From positions 624,018-688,017 of the forward strand of contig NZ_JAFG01000005.1 of NCBI RefSeq assembly GCF_000519305.1: a DNA stretch of 64,000 nucleotides, read 5' to 3'. The notes under the pieces were generated by a model. The model saw nothing but the letters and a program-made list of their open reading frames with translations, searched no databases and was not told where the DNA came from. Position 1 is the first letter of the stretch, and every line of letters starts with the position of its first letter. The position numbers and the translations under genes are program-made. The stretch comes from Mesorhizobium ciceri WSM4083 (GTDB lineage: Bacteria > Pseudomonadota > Alphaproteobacteria > Rhizobiales > Rhizobiaceae). Below, piece after piece: positions 40,267-48,265 of the stretch.

Positions 40267-40647
40267 TCAGGCGGAGGCGCGTGCCTCTGCCAGCGCCTTC
40301 AGGTCGGCCGGCTTCAGTTCGACGGATTCGCCGCAGCCGCAGGCCGAACTCTGGTTCGGATTGTGGAAGGTGAAGCCGGTGCGCAGCGTCGTCTGCTCGA
40401 AATCCATCTCGGTGCCGAACAGGAATAGCGCTGCCTCGGGCGCCACATAGACATGCGCGCCGTCGCGCTCGATATGGTCGTCCTTGGTATTGGGCTCGGT
40501 CACCAGATCGACCGTATATTCCATGCCGGCGCAGCCGCCCTTCTTGATGCCTAGGCGGATGCCGTGCGCGCTGTCGCGGGTGGCAACGATCTCCCGCACC
40601 CGGTCGGCGGCCTTTTCGGTCATCGTGATGACGGCGAAGCGTCCCAT
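40267..40647 (-). CDS. sufA: A-type iron-sulfur carrier SufA/IscA/ErpA
   Basis: A 126-residue HesB/IscA-fold protein that accepts and delivers iron-sulfur clusters. The three ligand Cys are in G-G-C-A-G-M-E-Y and S-A-C-G-C-G-E-S, the standard C-x(n)-C-x-C pattern. AAGGA lies 7 bases before the ATG at 40647; the short upstream extension is not conserved. It is the last gene of the minus-strand suf cluster, 105 bases after the DUF59 gene, so it probably belongs to the same transcript. The family assignment between SufA and ErpA is by context. Confidence 0.92.
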   Translation of the reverse strand: MGRFAVITMTEKAADRVREIVATRDSAHGIRLGIKKGGCAGMEYTVDLVTEPNTKDDHIERDGAHVYVAPEAALFLFGTEMDFEQTTLRTGFTFHNPNQSSACGCGESVELKPADLKALAEARASA

Positions 40648-40751
40648 GTTTTTCCTTCTCCATTCCATGCAGGTTCAAGGCCTGCCGAATGATTCCTCAC
40701 CTAAAATGGTGAAGTTTTATCCTTGGTGCAAGTGTGCCAGCCTCTGTCGGG

Positions 40752-41144
40752 CTAGTACCAACCCACCGCCACCTGCGCCTCTTCCGACATGCGGTCGGCC
40801 GACCATGGCGGGTCGAAAGTCATGTTGACCTCGACGCCGGACACGCCTTCGACGGCGCCGACGGCATTCTCCACCCAGCCGGGCATTTCGCCGGCGACAG
40901 GGCAGCCCGGAGCGGTCAGCGTCATGTCGATCTTGACCGAGCGGTTGTCCTCGATGTCGATCTTGTAGATCAGGCCGAGCTCGTAGATATCGGCCGGGAT
41001 TTCCGGATCGTAGACCGTCTTCAGCGCCGAGACGATGTCGTCGGTCAGCCGCGCCAGCTCGTCGGCTGGAATGGCCGATCCCGAAACCAGCGCATTGGGC
41101 GCGGTTTCCGGAGTGGTCTCGGCAGCGATGCTTGCATCATCCAT
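40752..41144 (-). CDS. sufT: SufT-like DUF59/MIP18 family Fe-S assembly protein
   Basis: A 130-residue protein with the DUF59/MIP18 domain after an N-terminal Ala/Thr/Glu-rich stretch of about 30 residues. The key motif is V-Y-D-P-E-I-P-A-D-I-Y-E-L-G-L-I-Y, then L-T-A-P-G-C-P-V-A-G-E with a conserved Cys, and V-N-M-T-F-D-P-P-W. SufT-type proteins assist maturation of Fe-S proteins, especially with suf genes. It starts about 20 bases past sufS and ends upstream of sufA. Confidence 0.9.
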   Translation of the reverse strand: MDDASIAAETTPETAPNALVSGSAIPADELARLTDDIVSALKTVYDPEIPADIYELGLIYKIDIEDNRSVKIDMTLTAPGCPVAGEMPGWVENAVGAVEGVSGVEVNMTFDPPWSADRMSEEAQVAVGWY

Positions 41145-41165
41145 GGTCGTCACCCAAAAAACTCG

Positions 41166-42410
41166 TCATCCGAAGAATTTGCGCGCTTTTTCAAGCGCCT
41201 CGGCCAAAGCGTCGACTTCGGCCCTGGTATTATACATGCCGAACGATGCCCTGCATGTGGAGGTTACACCAAACCGTTTCAACAGCGGCTGGGCGCAATG
41301 CGTGCCGGCGCGGACTGCAACGCCTTGCCTGTCTATCACCATCGACACGTCGTGCGCATGAATGCCTTGCAGCTCGAACGAGATGATGGCGCCCTTGCCG
41401 GGCGCATCGCCGAAGATGCGCAGCGAGTTGATGGCGCGCAGCCGCTCATGCGCGTAGTTCTTGAGGTCTTCCTCGTGTGCGGCGATGCGCTCGCGGCCGA
41501 TCGTTTCCATATAATCGAGCGCGGCACCGAGCCCGATCGCCTGGACTATCGGCGGCGTGCCGGCCTCGAAGCGGTGCGGTGGCTCGTTGTAGGTGACGAT
41601 GTCTTCCGTCACCTCCTCGATCATCTCGCCGCCGCCCATGAAGGGCCGCATGCCGGACAGAATGTCCTTCTTGCCGTAGAGCACGCCGATGCCCGACGGG
41701 CCATAAACCTTGTGCCCGGTGAAGACGAAGAAGTCGCAGTCGAGATCCTGCACATCGATCGGCATATGCACGGCGCTCTGGCTGCCGTCGACCAGCACCG
41801 GAATGCCACGCGCATGCGCGATCCGCACGATCTCCTTGATCGGCGTCACCGTGCCCAGCGCATTCGACATCTGTGTGATGGCGACCAGCTTGGTGCGGTC
41901 GGTCAGCCGCTTCTCGAATTCCTCGATGTGGAAGACGCCGAGATCGTCGACCGGCACCCAGACCAGCTTGGCGCCCTGCCGCTCGCGGATGAAATGCCAC
42001 GGCACGATGTTGGAGTGGTGCTCCATGATCGACAGCACGATCTCGTCGCCCTCGCCGATGTTGGGCATGCCATAGCCATAGGCGACCGTGTTGATGGCCG
42101 AGGTTGTGTTCGACGTGAAGATGATGTTGTCGGTGCTCGGCGCATTGAGGAAGCGGCGCACCGTCTCTCGCGCCTTTTCGTAGGCATCGGTCGCGGCGTT
42201 GGACAGGAAATGCAGGCCGCGATGGACGTTGGCGTATTCTTGGCTATAGGCGTGCTGGATGGCGTCGAGCACCGCCTGCGGCTTTTGTGCCGAGGCGCCA
42301 TTGTCGAGATAGACCAGCTTCTTGCCATAGACTTCCCGCGACAGGATCGGGAAATCGCGGCGGATCGCTTCGACGTCGTAGAAATCTCCGATCTTGCCCG
42401 GTGCGTTCAT
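41166..42410 (-). CDS. sufS: Cysteine desulfurase SufS
   Basis: A 414-residue class II cysteine desulfurase that takes sulfur from cysteine for cluster building. PLP lysine is K234 in T-G-H-K-V-Y-G-P; the persulfide-forming Cys is C372 in R-A-G-T-H-C-A-Q-P. The Met before N-A-P-G-K-I begins 4 bases after the sufD stop. No sufE gene is visible in the window, so the sulfur acceptor must be encoded elsewhere or be SufU-like. Class II enzymes normally need such an activator. Confidence 0.96.
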   Translation of the reverse strand: MNAPGKIGDFYDVEAIRRDFPILSREVYGKKLVYLDNGASAQKPQAVLDAIQHAYSQEYANVHRGLHFLSNAATDAYEKARETVRRFLNAPSTDNIIFTSNTTSAINTVAYGYGMPNIGEGDEIVLSIMEHHSNIVPWHFIRERQGAKLVWVPVDDLGVFHIEEFEKRLTDRTKLVAITQMSNALGTVTPIKEIVRIAHARGIPVLVDGSQSAVHMPIDVQDLDCDFFVFTGHKVYGPSGIGVLYGKKDILSGMRPFMGGGEMIEEVTEDIVTYNEPPHRFEAGTPPIVQAIGLGAALDYMETIGRERIAAHEEDLKNYAHERLRAINSLRIFGDAPGKGAIISFELQGIHAHDVSMVIDRQGVAVRAGTHCAQPLLKRFGVTSTCRASFGMYNTRAEVDALAEALEKARKFFG

Positions 42411-42414
42411 CAAA

Positions 42415-43683
42415 TCACCCGTGCGCCGCGAACCAGTCGTCGAGCCGCGCCTCCAGCGCCTCGACGATCGCTTCATCGTCCAGTTCCTCGATCACCTCGG
42501 CGACGAACGCCTTCACGAGCAAGCCCCGCGCGCTTTTCTCGTCGACGCCACGCGCCATCAGGTAGAACAGATGGTTGTGGTCGATTTCGGTGACCGTCGC
42601 GCCATGGCCGCAAATCACGTCGTCGGCGAAGATTTCAAGCTCCGGCTTGGTCGAGAATTCGCCGTCATCCGACAGCAGCAGCGTGTTGCAGGCCATCTTG
42701 GCGTTGGTCTTCTGCGCATATTGATGGACGTTGATGCGACCCTGGAAGACGCCGCGCGCCTTGCCCGTCACCACGTTGCGGATAACTTCCGTCGAGGTCG
42801 TGTGCGGCACGGCATGGTCGAGCACCATGGTCACGTCGGTATGGGTGTCACCGGCCAAAAGGTTGATGCCGCGCAGTTTGAAATCGGCGCCTTCGCCAGT
42901 CGTCCTGACCATGATCTCCTGGCGCACCAGTCTGCCGCCGGCGTTCATGACAAACAACGTCAGTTTCGCATTCTTGCCGATATGGGCCTTGAACTGCGCC
43001 AGATGCGTCGCCGTTTCCGGCTGCTCCTGGACGATCAGCCACGTCACCTCGGCGCCCTCGCCGAGCACCAGCTGGCTGACCGAGCTGCCCAAGGCAGCGC
43101 CGTCACCCGTCTGACGTTCGACGATGACGGCCTTGGCGCCGGCGCCGACACGAACGGCCAGGCGCACATGGGTCTGTCCGCCGGCCTGCAGGTTCTGCAG
43201 CTCGACCGGCTTTTCAAGTTCCACACCATCGGCGATGTCGACAAAATACCCGTCGGCGACGAAAGCCGTGTTCAGCGCGCCGATGGCGTCGTCGCTGCCA
43301 TAGGGATCGAGCCCAGCTGCTGCGCTGCCGTCGATCAGCTTTTCCGACAGGCGCTGGAAAGAGACGCCTTCAGGAGCCGGCACTTTGGCGTCGGACTTGC
43401 CGTTCAGGATCGATGCCACAGTGGAACCGTCGACGATCGGTGCAATGGCTTTGGCCATGGCGGCCGGGTCGAAGTCCGGCACGGTATTCAGCAGCCGGCG
43501 CAGGTCGGTGTAATGCCAGGATTCGACACGCCGCGTCGGCAGGCCGTGCTTGATCGTCTCGATGGCGTCGTCGCGCTTCAGCATCACCGCGCCGTCACCC
43601 GGCAGCAGCGACAGCCGGTCGCCGAACGCGTCGATCAACGCCGTCTCGGCCGGTGTCCGCTGCGGTTGTGTGTGCATGTTCAT
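42415..43683 (-). CDS. sufD: Fe-S scaffold subunit SufD
   Basis: A 422-residue SufD, the paralogous partner of SufB in the SufBC2D scaffold; it helps iron entry and cluster assembly. The C-terminal beta-helix core has C-G-H-G-A-T-V-T-E-I-D (with the conserved His) and L-F-Y-L-M-A-R-G-V-D-E-K-S-A-R. AGAGGT lies 8 bases before the ATG at 43683; a start 6 codons earlier is open but would almost touch sufC. Upstream gene is sufC, 19 bases away. Confidence 0.93.
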   Translation of the reverse strand: MNMHTQPQRTPAETALIDAFGDRLSLLPGDGAVMLKRDDAIETIKHGLPTRRVESWHYTDLRRLLNTVPDFDPAAMAKAIAPIVDGSTVASILNGKSDAKVPAPEGVSFQRLSEKLIDGSAAAGLDPYGSDDAIGALNTAFVADGYFVDIADGVELEKPVELQNLQAGGQTHVRLAVRVGAGAKAVIVERQTGDGAALGSSVSQLVLGEGAEVTWLIVQEQPETATHLAQFKAHIGKNAKLTLFVMNAGGRLVRQEIMVRTTGEGADFKLRGINLLAGDTHTDVTMVLDHAVPHTTSTEVIRNVVTGKARGVFQGRINVHQYAQKTNAKMACNTLLLSDDGEFSTKPELEIFADDVICGHGATVTEIDHNHLFYLMARGVDEKSARGLLVKAFVAEVIEELDDEAIVEALEARLDDWFAAHG

Positions 43684-43702
43684 CGGTATTACCTCTGGCA
43701 TC

Positions 43703-44458
43703 TCACGCGGCTTCGCCGATCACGCCGGCATAGCCATTGGCTTCCAGGTCGAGCGCCAGCGACTTGTCGCCTGACTTGATGACCTGGCCCTTGTAGAGCA
43801 CGTGCACGGTGTCGGGCACGATGTGCTCAAGCAGGCGCTGGTAGTGGGTGATCACCAGGAACGCCCGGTCCGGCGCGCGCAGCGCGTTGACGCCGTCGGA
43901 CACGATCTTCAGCGCATCGATGTCGAGGCCAGAATCGGTCTCGTCGAGCACGCACAATTTCGGCTCCAGCAGCTTCATCTGCAGGATCTCGGCGCGCTTC
44001 TTCTCGCCGCCGGAGAAGCCTACATTGAGCGGCCGCTTGAGCATCGCCATGTCCATGCTGAGCGAGGCGGCGGCTTCCTTCACGCGCTTCAGGAATTCCG
44101 GGATCTTCAGCGGTTCCTCGCCACGTGCCTTGCGCTGCTCGTTCATCGCCACTTTCAGGAATTCCATGGTGGCAACGCCCGGTATCTCCATCGGATACTG
44201 GAAAGCGAGGAAGATGCCTGACGTGGCGCGCTCGGCCGGATCCATTTCGAGGATCGACTGGCCGTTGTAGAGGATGTCGCCTTCGGTGACCTCATAGTCC
44301 TCGCGGCCGGCGAGGATGTAGGACAGCGTCGACTTGCCCGAGCCGTTCGGCCCCATGATCGCGGCGACCTCACCGGCCTTCACCGTCAGGTTCAAGCCGC
44401 GGATGATTTCGGTGCCGTCATCGACGATGCGGGCGTGCAGATTCTTGATCTCAAGCAT
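43703..44458 (-). CDS. sufC: Fe-S assembly ATPase SufC
   Basis: A 251-residue ABC-type ATPase, cytoplasmic, that drives the conformational change of SufBD. Walker A is G-P-N-G-S-G-K-S-T (36-44), the signature F-S-G-G-E-K-K-R (148-155), and Walker B ends in L-C-V-L-D-E-T-D-S-G-L-D near 168-179; the ET-D-S-G-L-D form is specific to SufC. It lies between sufB and sufD, the usual order. Confidence 0.97.
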   Translation of the reverse strand: MLEIKNLHARIVDDGTEIIRGLNLTVKAGEVAAIMGPNGSGKSTLSYILAGREDYEVTEGDILYNGQSILEMDPAERATSGIFLAFQYPMEIPGVATMEFLKVAMNEQRKARGEEPLKIPEFLKRVKEAAASLSMDMAMLKRPLNVGFSGGEKKRAEILQMKLLEPKLCVLDETDSGLDIDALKIVSDGVNALRAPDRAFLVITHYQRLLEHIVPDTVHVLYKGQVIKSGDKSLALDLEANGYAGVIGEAA

Positions 44459-44485: not shown

Positions 44486-46003
44486 TCAGCCGACCGAGCC
44501 CTCAAGCGAGATACCAATCAGCTTCTGCGCTTCGACAGCGAATTCCATCGGCAGCTGCTGGATGACGTCCTTGACGAAACCATTGACGATCAGCGCAATT
44601 GCTTCCTCTTCGGGGATGCCGCGCTGCATGACGTAGAATTTCTGGTCCTCGGAAATCTTCGAGGTCGTCGCTTCGTGCTCGAACTGCGCCGTCGAGTTCT
44701 TGGCTTCCATGTATGGCACGGTGTGCGCGCCGCACTGGTCGCCGATCAGCAGCGAGTCGCAGTTGGTGAAGTTGCGGGCGTTGGTCGCCTTGCGGTGCGC
44801 CGAGACCTGGCCGCGATAGGTGTTCTGCGAGAAGCCGGCGGCGATGCCCTTGGAGATGATGCGGCTCGACGTGTTCTTGCCGAGGTGGATCATCTTGGTG
44901 CCGCTGTCGACCTGCTGATAGCCGTTCGATACCGCAATCGAATAGAACTCACCTTGGGAATCGTCACCGCGCAGGATGCAGCTCGGATATTTCCAGGTGA
45001 TCGCCGAACCTGTCTCGACCTGCGTCCACGAGATCTTGGAGCGGTCGCCACGGCAGTCGCCGCGCTTGGTGACGAAATTGTAGATGCCCCCCTTGCCCTC
45101 GGCGTCGCCGGGGTACCAGTTCTGCACCGTCGAGTATTTGATCTCGGCATCGTCGAGCGCCACCAGTTCGACGACGGCGGCATGCAACTGGTTCTCGTCG
45201 CGTTGCGGCGCCGTGCAGCCTTCGAGATAGGAGACGTAAGCCCCCTCCTCGGCGATGATCAGCGTGCGCTCGAACTGGCCGGTGTTCTTCTCGTTCATGC
45301 GGAAATAGGTCGACAGCTCCATCGGGCAGCGCACGCCCTTGGGCACGAAGACGAACGAGCCGTCGGTGAAGACAGCGGAATTCAGCGTGGCGTAGTAATT
45401 GTCGGAGGTCGGCACGACCGAGCCGAGATATTTCTTCACCAGCTCCGGATGCTCGCGGATAGCTTCCGAGATCGAGCAGAAGATGACGCCGGCCTGCGCC
45501 AGCTCCTTCTTGAAGGTGGTGACGACGGAGACGGAATCGAACACGGCATCGACGGCGACGCGGCCCGATTTGTAGACATTGTCGCTGACTTCCTCGAGTT
45601 CCGAGGCGTCGGTCTTCTGCACGCCGGCAAGGATTTCCTGCTCGCGCAGCGGAATGCCGAGCTTCTCGTAGACCTTCAAGAGTTCGGGATCGACATCGCT
45701 CAGCGAAGTCGGGCCGGGCGTGCTCTTGGGCGCCGCGTAGAAGTAGATGTCCTGGAAATCGATCTTGGGATAGTGGACGCGCGCCCAGGTCGGCTCGTCA
45801 AGCGTCAGCCAGCGGCGATACGCTTCCAGACGCCATTCCAGCATCCAGGACGGTTCGTCCTTCTTGGCCGAAATGAAACGGATGATATCTTCGCTGAGGC
45901 CCTTGGGGGCCTTATCGACAGCGATTTCGGTCTGGAATCCGTATTTGTATTGGTCGACGTCGATCTTTCGGACCCGATCGATCGTGTCCTGCACAGCAGG
46001 CAT
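44486..46003 (-). CDS. sufB: Fe-S scaffold subunit SufB
   Basis: A 505-residue SufB, the main scaffold on which clusters form. Key C-terminal elements are [17 protein letters not shown] with the Cys ligands, [13 protein letters not shown], and R-G-I-P-E-E-E-A. The N-terminal helical part with [12 protein letters not shown] is standard. The 187-bp gap to the IscS-like gene upstream contains an 8-bp inverted repeat (GTTTCATA/TATGAAAC, 46100 and 46141) and an A/T-rich TATATG, so sufB may have an extra promoter. Confidence 0.97.
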
Positions 46004-46190
46004 ATGCGTTCTCCATCCACGCCGGGGTCAAGGCCCGACAGTTTTCAAACTATGGCACCGCCAAAAACGAACCCCAAAAAGGCGCTCGCGGCAGCGTAAG
46101 TTTCATATAGTGCGCTTCGACCGGAAATTCACCCGGCCAGTATGAAACGCACGGCTCTACCAGGCCGAAAGGCCCAAATTCGTCCAACCG

Positions 46191-47354
46191 CTACGCGGCC
46201 CGTTCTCTATCCGCCCTACGTGCGGCAATAGCCGCAAGCGCGGTGCGGAAAAGCTCAACGTCTTCCGCGCCGGTCGCCGGTCCGATCGACACCCGCAAGG
46301 CGCCGAGACTGTCACCGCAGCCCATTGCTTTCAGCACATGGCTCGGTCCGACCTTGCCCGACGAACAGGCGGAGCCGGCCGACAGCGCTACACCGGCCAG
46401 ATCGAAGGCGATCTGCGCGGTTTCGGCTTTGACGCCCGCAATAGCGAAGAATGCCGTGTTGGCAAGCCTTGGCGCACCGGTTCCAAAGATTTCCGCGTCC
46501 GGCACGAGCGTTTTCACGATGGCTTCGATCTCGTCGCGGCGCCGGCGCACCGCATCCATGGCCGGCAATCCGGCCAGGGCCTCGCGGGCGGCCGCGCCAA
46601 AACCGGCAATGGCAGCCAGGTTTTCAGTGCCGCCGCGATGGCCCTTTTCCTGGCCGCCGCCATTGATCAACGGCTTCGGCATCATCAAATCGGAAGCCGC
46701 GACGATGGCGCCGACGCCCTTGGGGCCACCGATCTTGTGCGAGGACAGAATCAGATAATCGGCGTAACCCGCTGATAGATCGGTCGAAACACGCCCTACG
46801 GCCTGCACGGCGTCGACAATGAGGATGCCGCCCGCCGCCTTGACGATCGCGGCGATGCGATCGATCGGCTGGATGACCCCGGTCTCGTTGTTGGCGGCGT
46901 GGATGGCGACCAGCGGCAGGCCCTCGCTCTTGTCGTGACCGCCGAGCGCCGACGCCAAGGCGCCGAGATCGGCGATGCCGTTGGCGTCGACACCGATCCG
47001 GGTAACCTGCGCTGCCGGGAAGTGTCCGCCGTTCAACAGGCAGGGATGATCGGCCTCCGACACGTAAAGCCGGCTCATACGCACCGTGCCGCGCCCCATC
47101 CGCCAGTCGGGTGACAGCAGCGTCGAGGCTGCTTCCGTGGCGCCGGAGGTGAACACGACATGCTCGGGCTTGGCGTTGACGAGCGCCGCCACGTCACGCC
47201 TGGCGGTTTCGATCAGACGGCGGGCGGCGCGCCCTTCGGCGTGAACCGATGACGGATTGGCGGCGACGTCAAGAGCCGCGACCATAGCTTCGCGGGCCGC
47301 GGCAAGCAGCGGCGCACTGGCATTATAATCGAGATAGGCGCGTTTTGCGGCCAT
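46191..47354 (-). CDS. IscS/NifS-type (class I) cysteine desulfurase
   Basis: A 387-residue class I cysteine desulfurase, distinct from SufS. N-terminal Y-L-D-Y-N-A-S-A-P-L is typical; the PLP lysine is K207 in S-S-H-K-I-G-G-P-K-G and the active Cys is C330 in S-A-G-S-A-C-S-S-G-K. It is the first gene of the suf cluster, a placement seen in Rhizobiales. Having both classes in one operon suggests that this enzyme can feed SufB directly while SufS needs a partner. The promoter upstream carries an iron-control-like palindrome. Confidence 0.95.
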   Translation of the reverse strand: MAAKRAYLDYNASAPLLAAAREAMVAALDVAANPSSVHAEGRAARRLIETARRDVAALVNAKPEHVVFTSGATEAASTLLSPDWRMGRGTVRMSRLYVSEADHPCLLNGGHFPAAQVTRIGVDANGIADLGALASALGGHDKSEGLPLVAIHAANNETGVIQPIDRIAAIVKAAGGILIVDAVQAVGRVSTDLSAGYADYLILSSHKIGGPKGVGAIVAASDLMMPKPLINGGGQEKGHRGGTENLAAIAGFGAAAREALAGLPAMDAVRRRRDEIEAIVKTLVPDAEIFGTGAPRLANTAFFAIAGVKAETAQIAFDLAGVALSAGSACSSGKVGPSHVLKAMGCGDSLGALRVSIGPATGAEDVELFRTALAAIAARRADRERAA

Positions 47355-47485
47355 TTTCGTCCGTCAAGTCCCGTCAGAAGCCATTCCGCTGTCGTATGGC
47401 GTTATTTCCTTGAAATTCCAAGGCGAGCCGTCCTATTTACGCGGCTTGCGGCGCGGGTGGCCGGGCTCGATGTCTTGCCACCCAG

Positions 47486-47502
47486 TTTTGAACAATTCTA
47501 AA
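47486..47502. promoter_or_regulatory. Irr/ICE-like palindrome
   Basis: TTTTGAA-CAA-TTCTAAA differs at one base from TTTAGAA-N3-TTCTAAA, which I recall as the ICE-type site of the haem-dependent iron regulator Irr in Rhizobiales. It covers the expected transcription start of the suf cluster (about 47500), so binding should repress. Assignment to Irr is from consensus memory. Confidence 0.62.
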
Positions 47503-47506
47503 CTAG

Positions 47507-47535
47507 CTTCTAAGAAGACGCTCGCCCTGCGTCAA
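47507..47535 (-). promoter_or_regulatory. Likely promoter of the suf cluster
   Basis: On the minus strand TTGACG (47530-47535) and TAGAAG (47507-47512) are separated by 17 bases. RNA would start near 47500, leaving a leader of about 145 bases before the IscS-like start. The remainder of the 236-bp gap shows no other clear element. Confidence 0.6.
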
Positions 47536-47590
47536 GGCCAGAGGAAACGTTCCAGGCACCGCGCATTCGTATTACCCAGTGGAGTATTTT

Positions 47591-48265
47591 ATGCCTGAGG
47601 TCATTTTCACCGGTCCTGCCGGCCGCCTGGAGGGTCGCTATCAGCCTTCCAAGGAAAAGAGCGCGCCGATTGCCATCGTCCTGCACCCGCACCCGCAATT
47701 CGGCGGCACGATGAACAACAAGATCGTCTACGACCTCTTCTACATGTTCCAGAAGCGGGATTTCACTACGCTGCGCTTCAATTTCCGCGGCATCGGCCGC
47801 AGTCAGGGCGAATTCGATCACGGCACCGGCGAGTTGTCGGATGCCGCCGCGGCGCTGGATTGGGTGCAGTCGCTGCATCCCGATTCCAAGAGCTGCTGGG
47901 TCGCCGGCTATTCCTTCGGCTCCTGGATCGGCATGCAGCTTCTGATGCGCCGGCCGGAGATCGAAGGCTTCATCTCGATCGCGCCGCAGCCCAACACCTA
48001 TGATTTCTCGTTCCTGGCGCCCTGCCCGTCATCTGGCCTGATCATCCATGGCGATGCCGACAAGGTGGCGCCGCCGAAGGATGTGCAGGGCCTTGTCGAC
48101 AAGCTGCACACGCAGAAGGGCATCACCATCACGCAAAAGACGTTGCCCGGCGCCAACCATTTCTTCGCCAACGATGCCGACCTGCTGCTCGAGGAATGCG
48201 CCGACTATCTCGACCGCCGGCTGGCCGGCGAATTGTCGGATCCGCGCCCGAAGCGGCTGAGATAG
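47591..48265 (+). CDS. Alpha/beta hydrolase
   Basis: A 224-residue alpha/beta hydrolase of the small dienelactone-hydrolase-like group common next to suf genes in Rhizobiales. The oxyanion region is L-H-P-H-P-Q-F-G-G-T-M-N-N-K; the nucleophile elbow is G-Y-S108-F-G; the acid is likely in H-G-D-A-D and the His in P-G-A-N-H-F-F. TGGAG lies 8 bases before the ATG. Substrate unknown. It is divergent from the suf cluster and shares the intergenic region with the ICE-like site, so it might respond to iron too. Confidence 0.9.
   Translation: MPEVIFTGPAGRLEGRYQPSKEKSAPIAIVLHPHPQFGGTMNNKIVYDLFYMFQKRDFTTLRFNFRGIGRSQGEFDHGTGELSDAAAALDWVQSLHPDSKSCWVAGYSFGSWIGMQLLMRRPEIEGFISIAPQPNTYDFSFLAPCPSSGLIIHGDADKVAPPKDVQGLVDKLHTQKGITITQKTLPGANHFFANDADLLLEECADYLDRRLAGELSDPRPKRLR

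Follow-up and report, generated by a model that had tools for sequence, protein, structure and literature searches.

A conserved Irr-type palindrome over the predicted transcription start of the suf operon in Mesorhizobium ciceri WSM4083

A 17-base palindrome lies between the suf genes for Fe-S cluster assembly of Mesorhizobium ciceri WSM4083 and a divergently transcribed alpha/beta-hydrolase gene, exactly where a promoter reading into suf can be recognised. Which regulator, if any, does it serve, and in which direction would it act on the genes downstream? The reading that we consider very probable is that the palindrome is an Irr operator (ICE) placed over the predicted start of sufS2-sufBCDS-sufT-like-sufA. 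The features concerned are collected in Table 1, with coordinates that refer to the window, i.e. the whole stretch of 64,000 nucleotides that was analysed. The listed start of sufS overlaps sufD, and the true start may be located further in.

Table 1. Features of the suf locus and its upstream region, with the evidence for each
Feature	Position in the window	Strand	Evidence
sufS2, NifS/IscS-like cysteine desulfurase, first suf gene	46191..47354	minus	TIGR03402 NifS 267.5 bits, below cut-off 530.75
sufB	44486..46003	minus	NF008773 902 bits, over cut-off
sufC	43703..44458	minus	TIGR01978 347 bits, over cut-off
sufD	42415..43701	minus	TIGR01981 280 bits, over cut-off
sufS, second desulfurase	41166..42476	minus	TIGR01979 602 bits, over cut-off
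SUF-associated assembly protein (SufT-like)	40752..41153	minus	TIGR02945 156.8 bits, over cut-off
sufA	40267..40668	minus	TIGR01997 158 bits, over cut-off
ICE-type palindrome TTTTGAA-CAA-TTCTAAA, putative Irr operator	47486..47502		sequence, 1 mismatch, conservation
suf promoter -10 hexamer TAGAAG	47507..47512	minus	coordinates, column composition over 89 family loci
suf promoter -35 hexamer TTGACG, spacer 17 nt	47530..47535	minus	coordinates, TTGAC in 89/89 family loci
promoter-like CTTGAA-N17-CCTATTT (TTGAAA 47410-47415, CTATTT 47433-47438), proposed hydrolase promoter	47409..47438	plus	conservation
alpha/beta-hydrolase gene, divergent from suf	47591..48265	plus	PF12146, PF00561 and others over cut-off

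A preliminary description of the locus had pointed to this palindrome and to a minus-strand promoter TTGACG-N17-TAGAAG beside it, and both were found where it had placed them, with a spacer of exactly 17 nt. With the coordinates read in the sequence itself, the palindrome at 47486-47502 is TTTTGAACAATTCTAAA, and a version one step longer, AGTTTTGAA-CAA-TTCTAAACT, covers 47484-47504. As the ICE consensus we have assumed the form TTTAGAA-N3-TTCTAAA, which was given in that description, and matches were scored as mismatches to this consensus, without a matrix of experimentally bound Rhizobiales sites. At a threshold of three mismatches the 64-kb window contains one match, the suf palindrome, and the scan bore out the single mismatch that had been claimed for it. 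Shuffled versions of the window gave a mean of 0.27 matches at the same threshold and at least one match in 22 of 100 cases; the match in the window, taken alone, is only suggestive of a real ICE, and it is conservation that settles that it is not a product of chance. Judging from the spacing of the hexamers, the suf transcript would start at about 47499-47501, inside the palindrome, if initiation takes place 6-8 nt past the -10. A promoter scan flagged another candidate over the ICE, on the plus strand (TTGCCA-N18-TAAACT, 47475-47504, score 9/12), which we have set aside because TTGCCA is not conserved in the genus alignment. The Rfam search of 47200-47700 retrieved nothing credible (best E 0.6, under gathering).

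We have followed the site through the regions upstream of sufS2 in related genomes. One search covered 61 genomes, 37 of them from the genus of the window, and 36 genus upstream regions were used (the genus genome G007, 86% complete, was left out since no sufS2 orthologue was found in it). The family search gave a match in 118 of 121 genomes; besides two that belong to the genus, regions were taken for 108 of 116 and 107 of these were oriented, so that eight genomes that were not fetched and one locus whose start was not located (L178) are outside the family counts. All 36 genus loci carry the ICE with no more than two mismatches (34 with one and two with two), and the promoter hexamers are kept too. 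Within the family the same limit is reached by 89 of the 107 loci (one without mismatches, 82 with one and six with two), and in every one of these 89 the TTGAC of the promoter starts 29-35 nt ahead of the ICE. The best site found within 400 nt in the other family loci has three mismatches in three cases and four to six in 15. Shuffled family regions came down to two mismatches or fewer in just 4 of 2140 trials, and set against the 36/36 genus and 89/107 family loci this frequency means that the suf palindrome is not there by chance. Neither the poor match nor the lack of conservation that had been named beforehand as speaking against the site was seen: there is one mismatch, and the site is kept throughout the genus and in the greater part of the family. 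Among more distant genomes of the order, a suf site with at most one mismatch appeared in only five of 14 (the 14 fetched out of 24 listed). The family loci in which the ICE is missing (more than three mismatches) are L105, L110, L113, L117, L131, L135, L154, L162-L165, L167, L169, L172 and L175.

The genome encodes two proteins of the FUR family (PF01475), one of them Irr and the other a Zur-like protein (L033). Irr is recognised at 224.3 bits by NF045678 (cut-off 150) and at 208.5 bits by NF045677, also over its cut-off. When at most one mismatch to the perfect palindrome is allowed, the genome contains four sites, located at mbfA and at an imelysin gene (no mismatch at either) and at nfuA and suf (one each). 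With two mismatches the number rises to five places, compared with three for the reversed control pattern, and the fifth site, with two mismatches and beside a DUF4167 gene, is probably a chance match. A relaxed pattern showed no excess over the control throughout the genome (15 and 12 matches vs 15 and 14), and consequently only near-perfect sites are informative. The ICE is found upstream of mbfA, whose product combines rubrerythrin and VIT1 domains, in 27 of the 29 loci examined. That Irr is the regulator, as the preliminary description proposed, is thus supported both by an Irr encoded over a curated cut-off and by the box that suf has in common with mbfA. As for the remaining two sites, the one at nfuA, an Fe-S scaffold gene, lies at L056 1501-1517 and is kept with two mismatches or fewer in 26 of 30 family loci, and the perfect palindrome at L054 1501-1517 is located between the imelysin (Peptidase_M75) gene and a divergent gene of the FAD ferredoxin-reductase type.

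The presence of Irr and that of the suf site were compared in 45 family genomes, of which 15 lack the site, three have a site with three mismatches and 27 a closer one. Irr was over cut-off in 41 of them, and the four genomes without it all belong to the 15 that lack the suf site. Put in another way, Irr accompanies a suf site of up to three mismatches in 30/30 genomes and is present in 11/15 of those without the site (Fisher p of about 0.009 by hand calculation). Since 11 of the site-less genomes still have Irr, the link with suf must have been lost, or never have arisen, in some lineages.

The palindrome might be nothing else than the ordinary AT-rich region downstream of a promoter, or initial transcribed sequence, devoid of operator function. 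A certain preference in sequence is to be expected at the predicted start, which is where it stands, and the genome-wide excess over the control at two mismatches is small. We consider this reading very unlikely, given that at 12 of the 14 consensus positions no more than three of the 89 family loci show variation, against a three-base centre that is free to change (22-36 changes at each position by parsimony). Besides, the palindrome occupies a different register at the other genes; as read from the sequences, it is located just past the -10 at suf and over the likely -10 at mbfA and nfuA.

To an even smaller extent do we believe that RirA, or some other regulator of the Rrf2 type, is the main protein acting at the site. 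RirA is encoded in the genome (L058, NF008886 257.8 bits, cut-off 193), and in Rhizobium leguminosarum the suf genes are part of the RirA regulon, being described as under RirA plus Irr (PMC5863699). The published RirA motif is TGA-N9-TCA (PMC8822346), and such a box overlaps the suf -35 in 27 of the 89 family loci, starting each time 28-32 nt before the ICE; the figure for shuffles is 1.4%, but the TGA of the box is part of the -35 and the two are hence not independent. Against this, the motif is found at suf in none of the 36 genus loci, its 11 matches in the window are about what chance would give and none is within 4 kb of the suf ICE, and the palindrome itself does not have the TGA-N9-TCA form. 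Fisher values calculated for the box take no account of relatedness. The counts suggest that at suf the genus of the window makes use of Irr and has no RirA box of such a form. The boxes of the other family loci fit the dual control by RirA and Irr reported for R. leguminosarum, a related bacterium that resembles our case in having an Fe-S assembly operon with Irr control (predicted here), and that differs from it in the additional RirA control.

We assign the lowest probability to the reading in which the operator belongs to a different member of the Fur family, for instance Zur. The genome does have a gene for a Zur-like protein, and regulators of the Fur family recognise palindromes of about this size, but the genes marked by the box (mbfA, the imelysin gene, nfuA and suf) have to do with iron and Fe-S clusters and not with zinc, and the genomes that lack Irr also lack the suf site.

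Returning to an Irr operator as the preferred reading, the direction of control can be predicted from where the site lies. Haem-free Irr binds the ICE, and the position of the site decides between repression and activation (PMC7762939). The preliminary description had left it open whether Irr would repress or derepress suf when haem or iron is limiting; the location of the ICE over the predicted start favours the former. When haem is low, haem-free Irr would bind the ICE and block initiation at suf, and when haem is plentiful Irr would release the site and the operon would be transcribed. In this lineage the assembly of Fe-S clusters is predicted, with good support, to be gated by haem status.

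That Irr controls suf genes in rhizobia has already been published, and the site in the window is a further, strongly supported case. Several known systems help to place it. In Rhodobacter sphaeroides the start of mbfA maps inside an Irr box to which Irr binds, making this gene a direct target (PMC3413700). In the isc-suf cluster of the same organism Irr binds at an internal promoter of suf (P3) and represses it, no binding in vitro was seen for the Irr box predicted at P2, and opposing promoters stimulate the main one (PMC6956336). P3 is like the present locus in having Irr at a suf promoter, with binding known there and predicted here; it is unlike it in being internal, in having its Irr site some 50 nt ahead of the start and in having IscR as the main regulator. 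These comparisons concern the regulator, and gene order offers another one. In the sufS2 operon of Agrobacterium tumefaciens the second desulfurase gene presumably comes first, in the same order as here. For that operon sufS2 is named as RirA-regulated (PMC5863699), and this emphasis on RirA sets it apart from the present locus.

A way to look at how the operator might work is to compare its two halves, with the 17 bases numbered 0 to 16 in gene direction. Position 3 of the suf ICE is A in all 89 family sites; at the mirror position 13 there are 59 sites with A, 22 with G, five with C and three with T. On a rough tree built from part of the hydrolase gene, position 3 underwent no change and position 13 underwent 14. 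The suf and mbfA sites have the palindrome in common, and the T at position 13 is kept by mbfA and mostly not by suf: this consensus base is missing in 86/89 suf, 20/26 nfuA and 0/27 mbfA sites. The mbfA sites have T in 27/27 (29 loci examined, two without a site), and the 26 nfuA sites (30 loci examined) have C in 19, T in six and A in one, with three nfuA sites in which the defect falls in the opposite half. Since the ICE lies in different registers at suf and at mbfA and nfuA, a single promoter constraint explains the defect poorly, and we read it as the sign of what would be a weaker operator at the Fe-S assembly genes. Just two of the 14 changes at position 13 involve T on the rough tree, by estimate no strong departure from chance, and an active avoidance of T at this position is unproven. 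The firm part of the pattern is the contrast with the mirror position, without any change, and with mbfA.

The hydrolase gene is divergent from suf in all the loci examined (36/36 in the genus and 107/107 in the family), and over the part seen its product has diverged less than SufS2, the identities between genera being mostly 85-97% for the hydrolase and about 50-76% for SufS2. A second block within the suf leader proved to be connected with this gene. As a RirA box it lacks TGA-N9-TCA, as an RNA hairpin its arms have no visible covariation, and as a small ORF its frame is broken in L036. On the plus strand the block resembles a promoter that goes with the hydrolase gene, CTTGAA-N17-CCTATTT, present in 36/36 genus loci. 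In the family 102 of 107 loci have a -35 of the CTTG type, with the T and the A of the -10 at a fixed distance in 100/102 each, and the element is also present in several loci without the ICE (e.g., L162, L164, L167). Its core, scanned through the genome at up to three mismatches, gave 15 matches, of which one is exact (suf) and one has two mismatches. The element has a likeness to the RpoH1 consensus, given as CTTGAA-N15-16-CCTATAT (PMC4843759, citing Barnett 2012), from which it departs by CCTATTT for CCTATAT and by a spacer of 17, off by 1-2; in Sinorhizobium meliloti the sigma-70 and RpoH motifs overlap (PMC3616915).

The suf and hydrolase promoters seem therefore to face each other, with leaders that would overlap by some 55 nt if the starts lie, as their elements indicate, near 47500 and 47445. 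This modifies the claim that the hydrolase shares the palindrome: the ICE would lie within the hydrolase leader and would not be an operator of the proposed hydrolase promoter, which has a conserved element of its own on the suf side (Table 1). It is conceivable that Irr bound at the ICE acts as a roadblock within that leader. The half-site pattern, the genus without a RirA box and the facing promoters were not met in the open-access literature searched.

A more speculative proposal, which we regard as possible but doubtful, is that a conserved defect sets up a gradation among Irr operators, with sub-consensus sites at suf and nfuA and a perfect core at mbfA. As haem falls, storage or export would be turned off before anything else, and the assembly of clusters would be the last to go; in the genus without a RirA box suf would be repressed, not induced, by iron limitation, and the facing, possibly RpoH-type, hydrolase promoter could interfere. 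If true, operator quality would set the order in which iron genes are shut down, and iron limitation may act on suf in opposite directions in related rhizobia that have the RirA box and in those that lack it.

The gap between sufS2 and sufB (46004-46190, minus strand, 187 bp) holds a block, just ahead of sufB, that is near-invariant in 30 aligned genus loci and has been retained by the majority of 28 family loci. Owing to this conserved block, Irr control of the whole suf cluster is not to be assumed. The Rfam search of 45950-46250 gave nothing credible (mir-1188 at E 0.012, far below gathering). The block is possibly a leader RNA or an internal promoter. A hairpin of 6-7 bp can be drawn ahead of the sufB ribosome site in 29/29 sequences (one of these with a mispair; the register was searched freely, with no shuffled control), and compensating changes in it are seen in L069, L072, L079 and L085.
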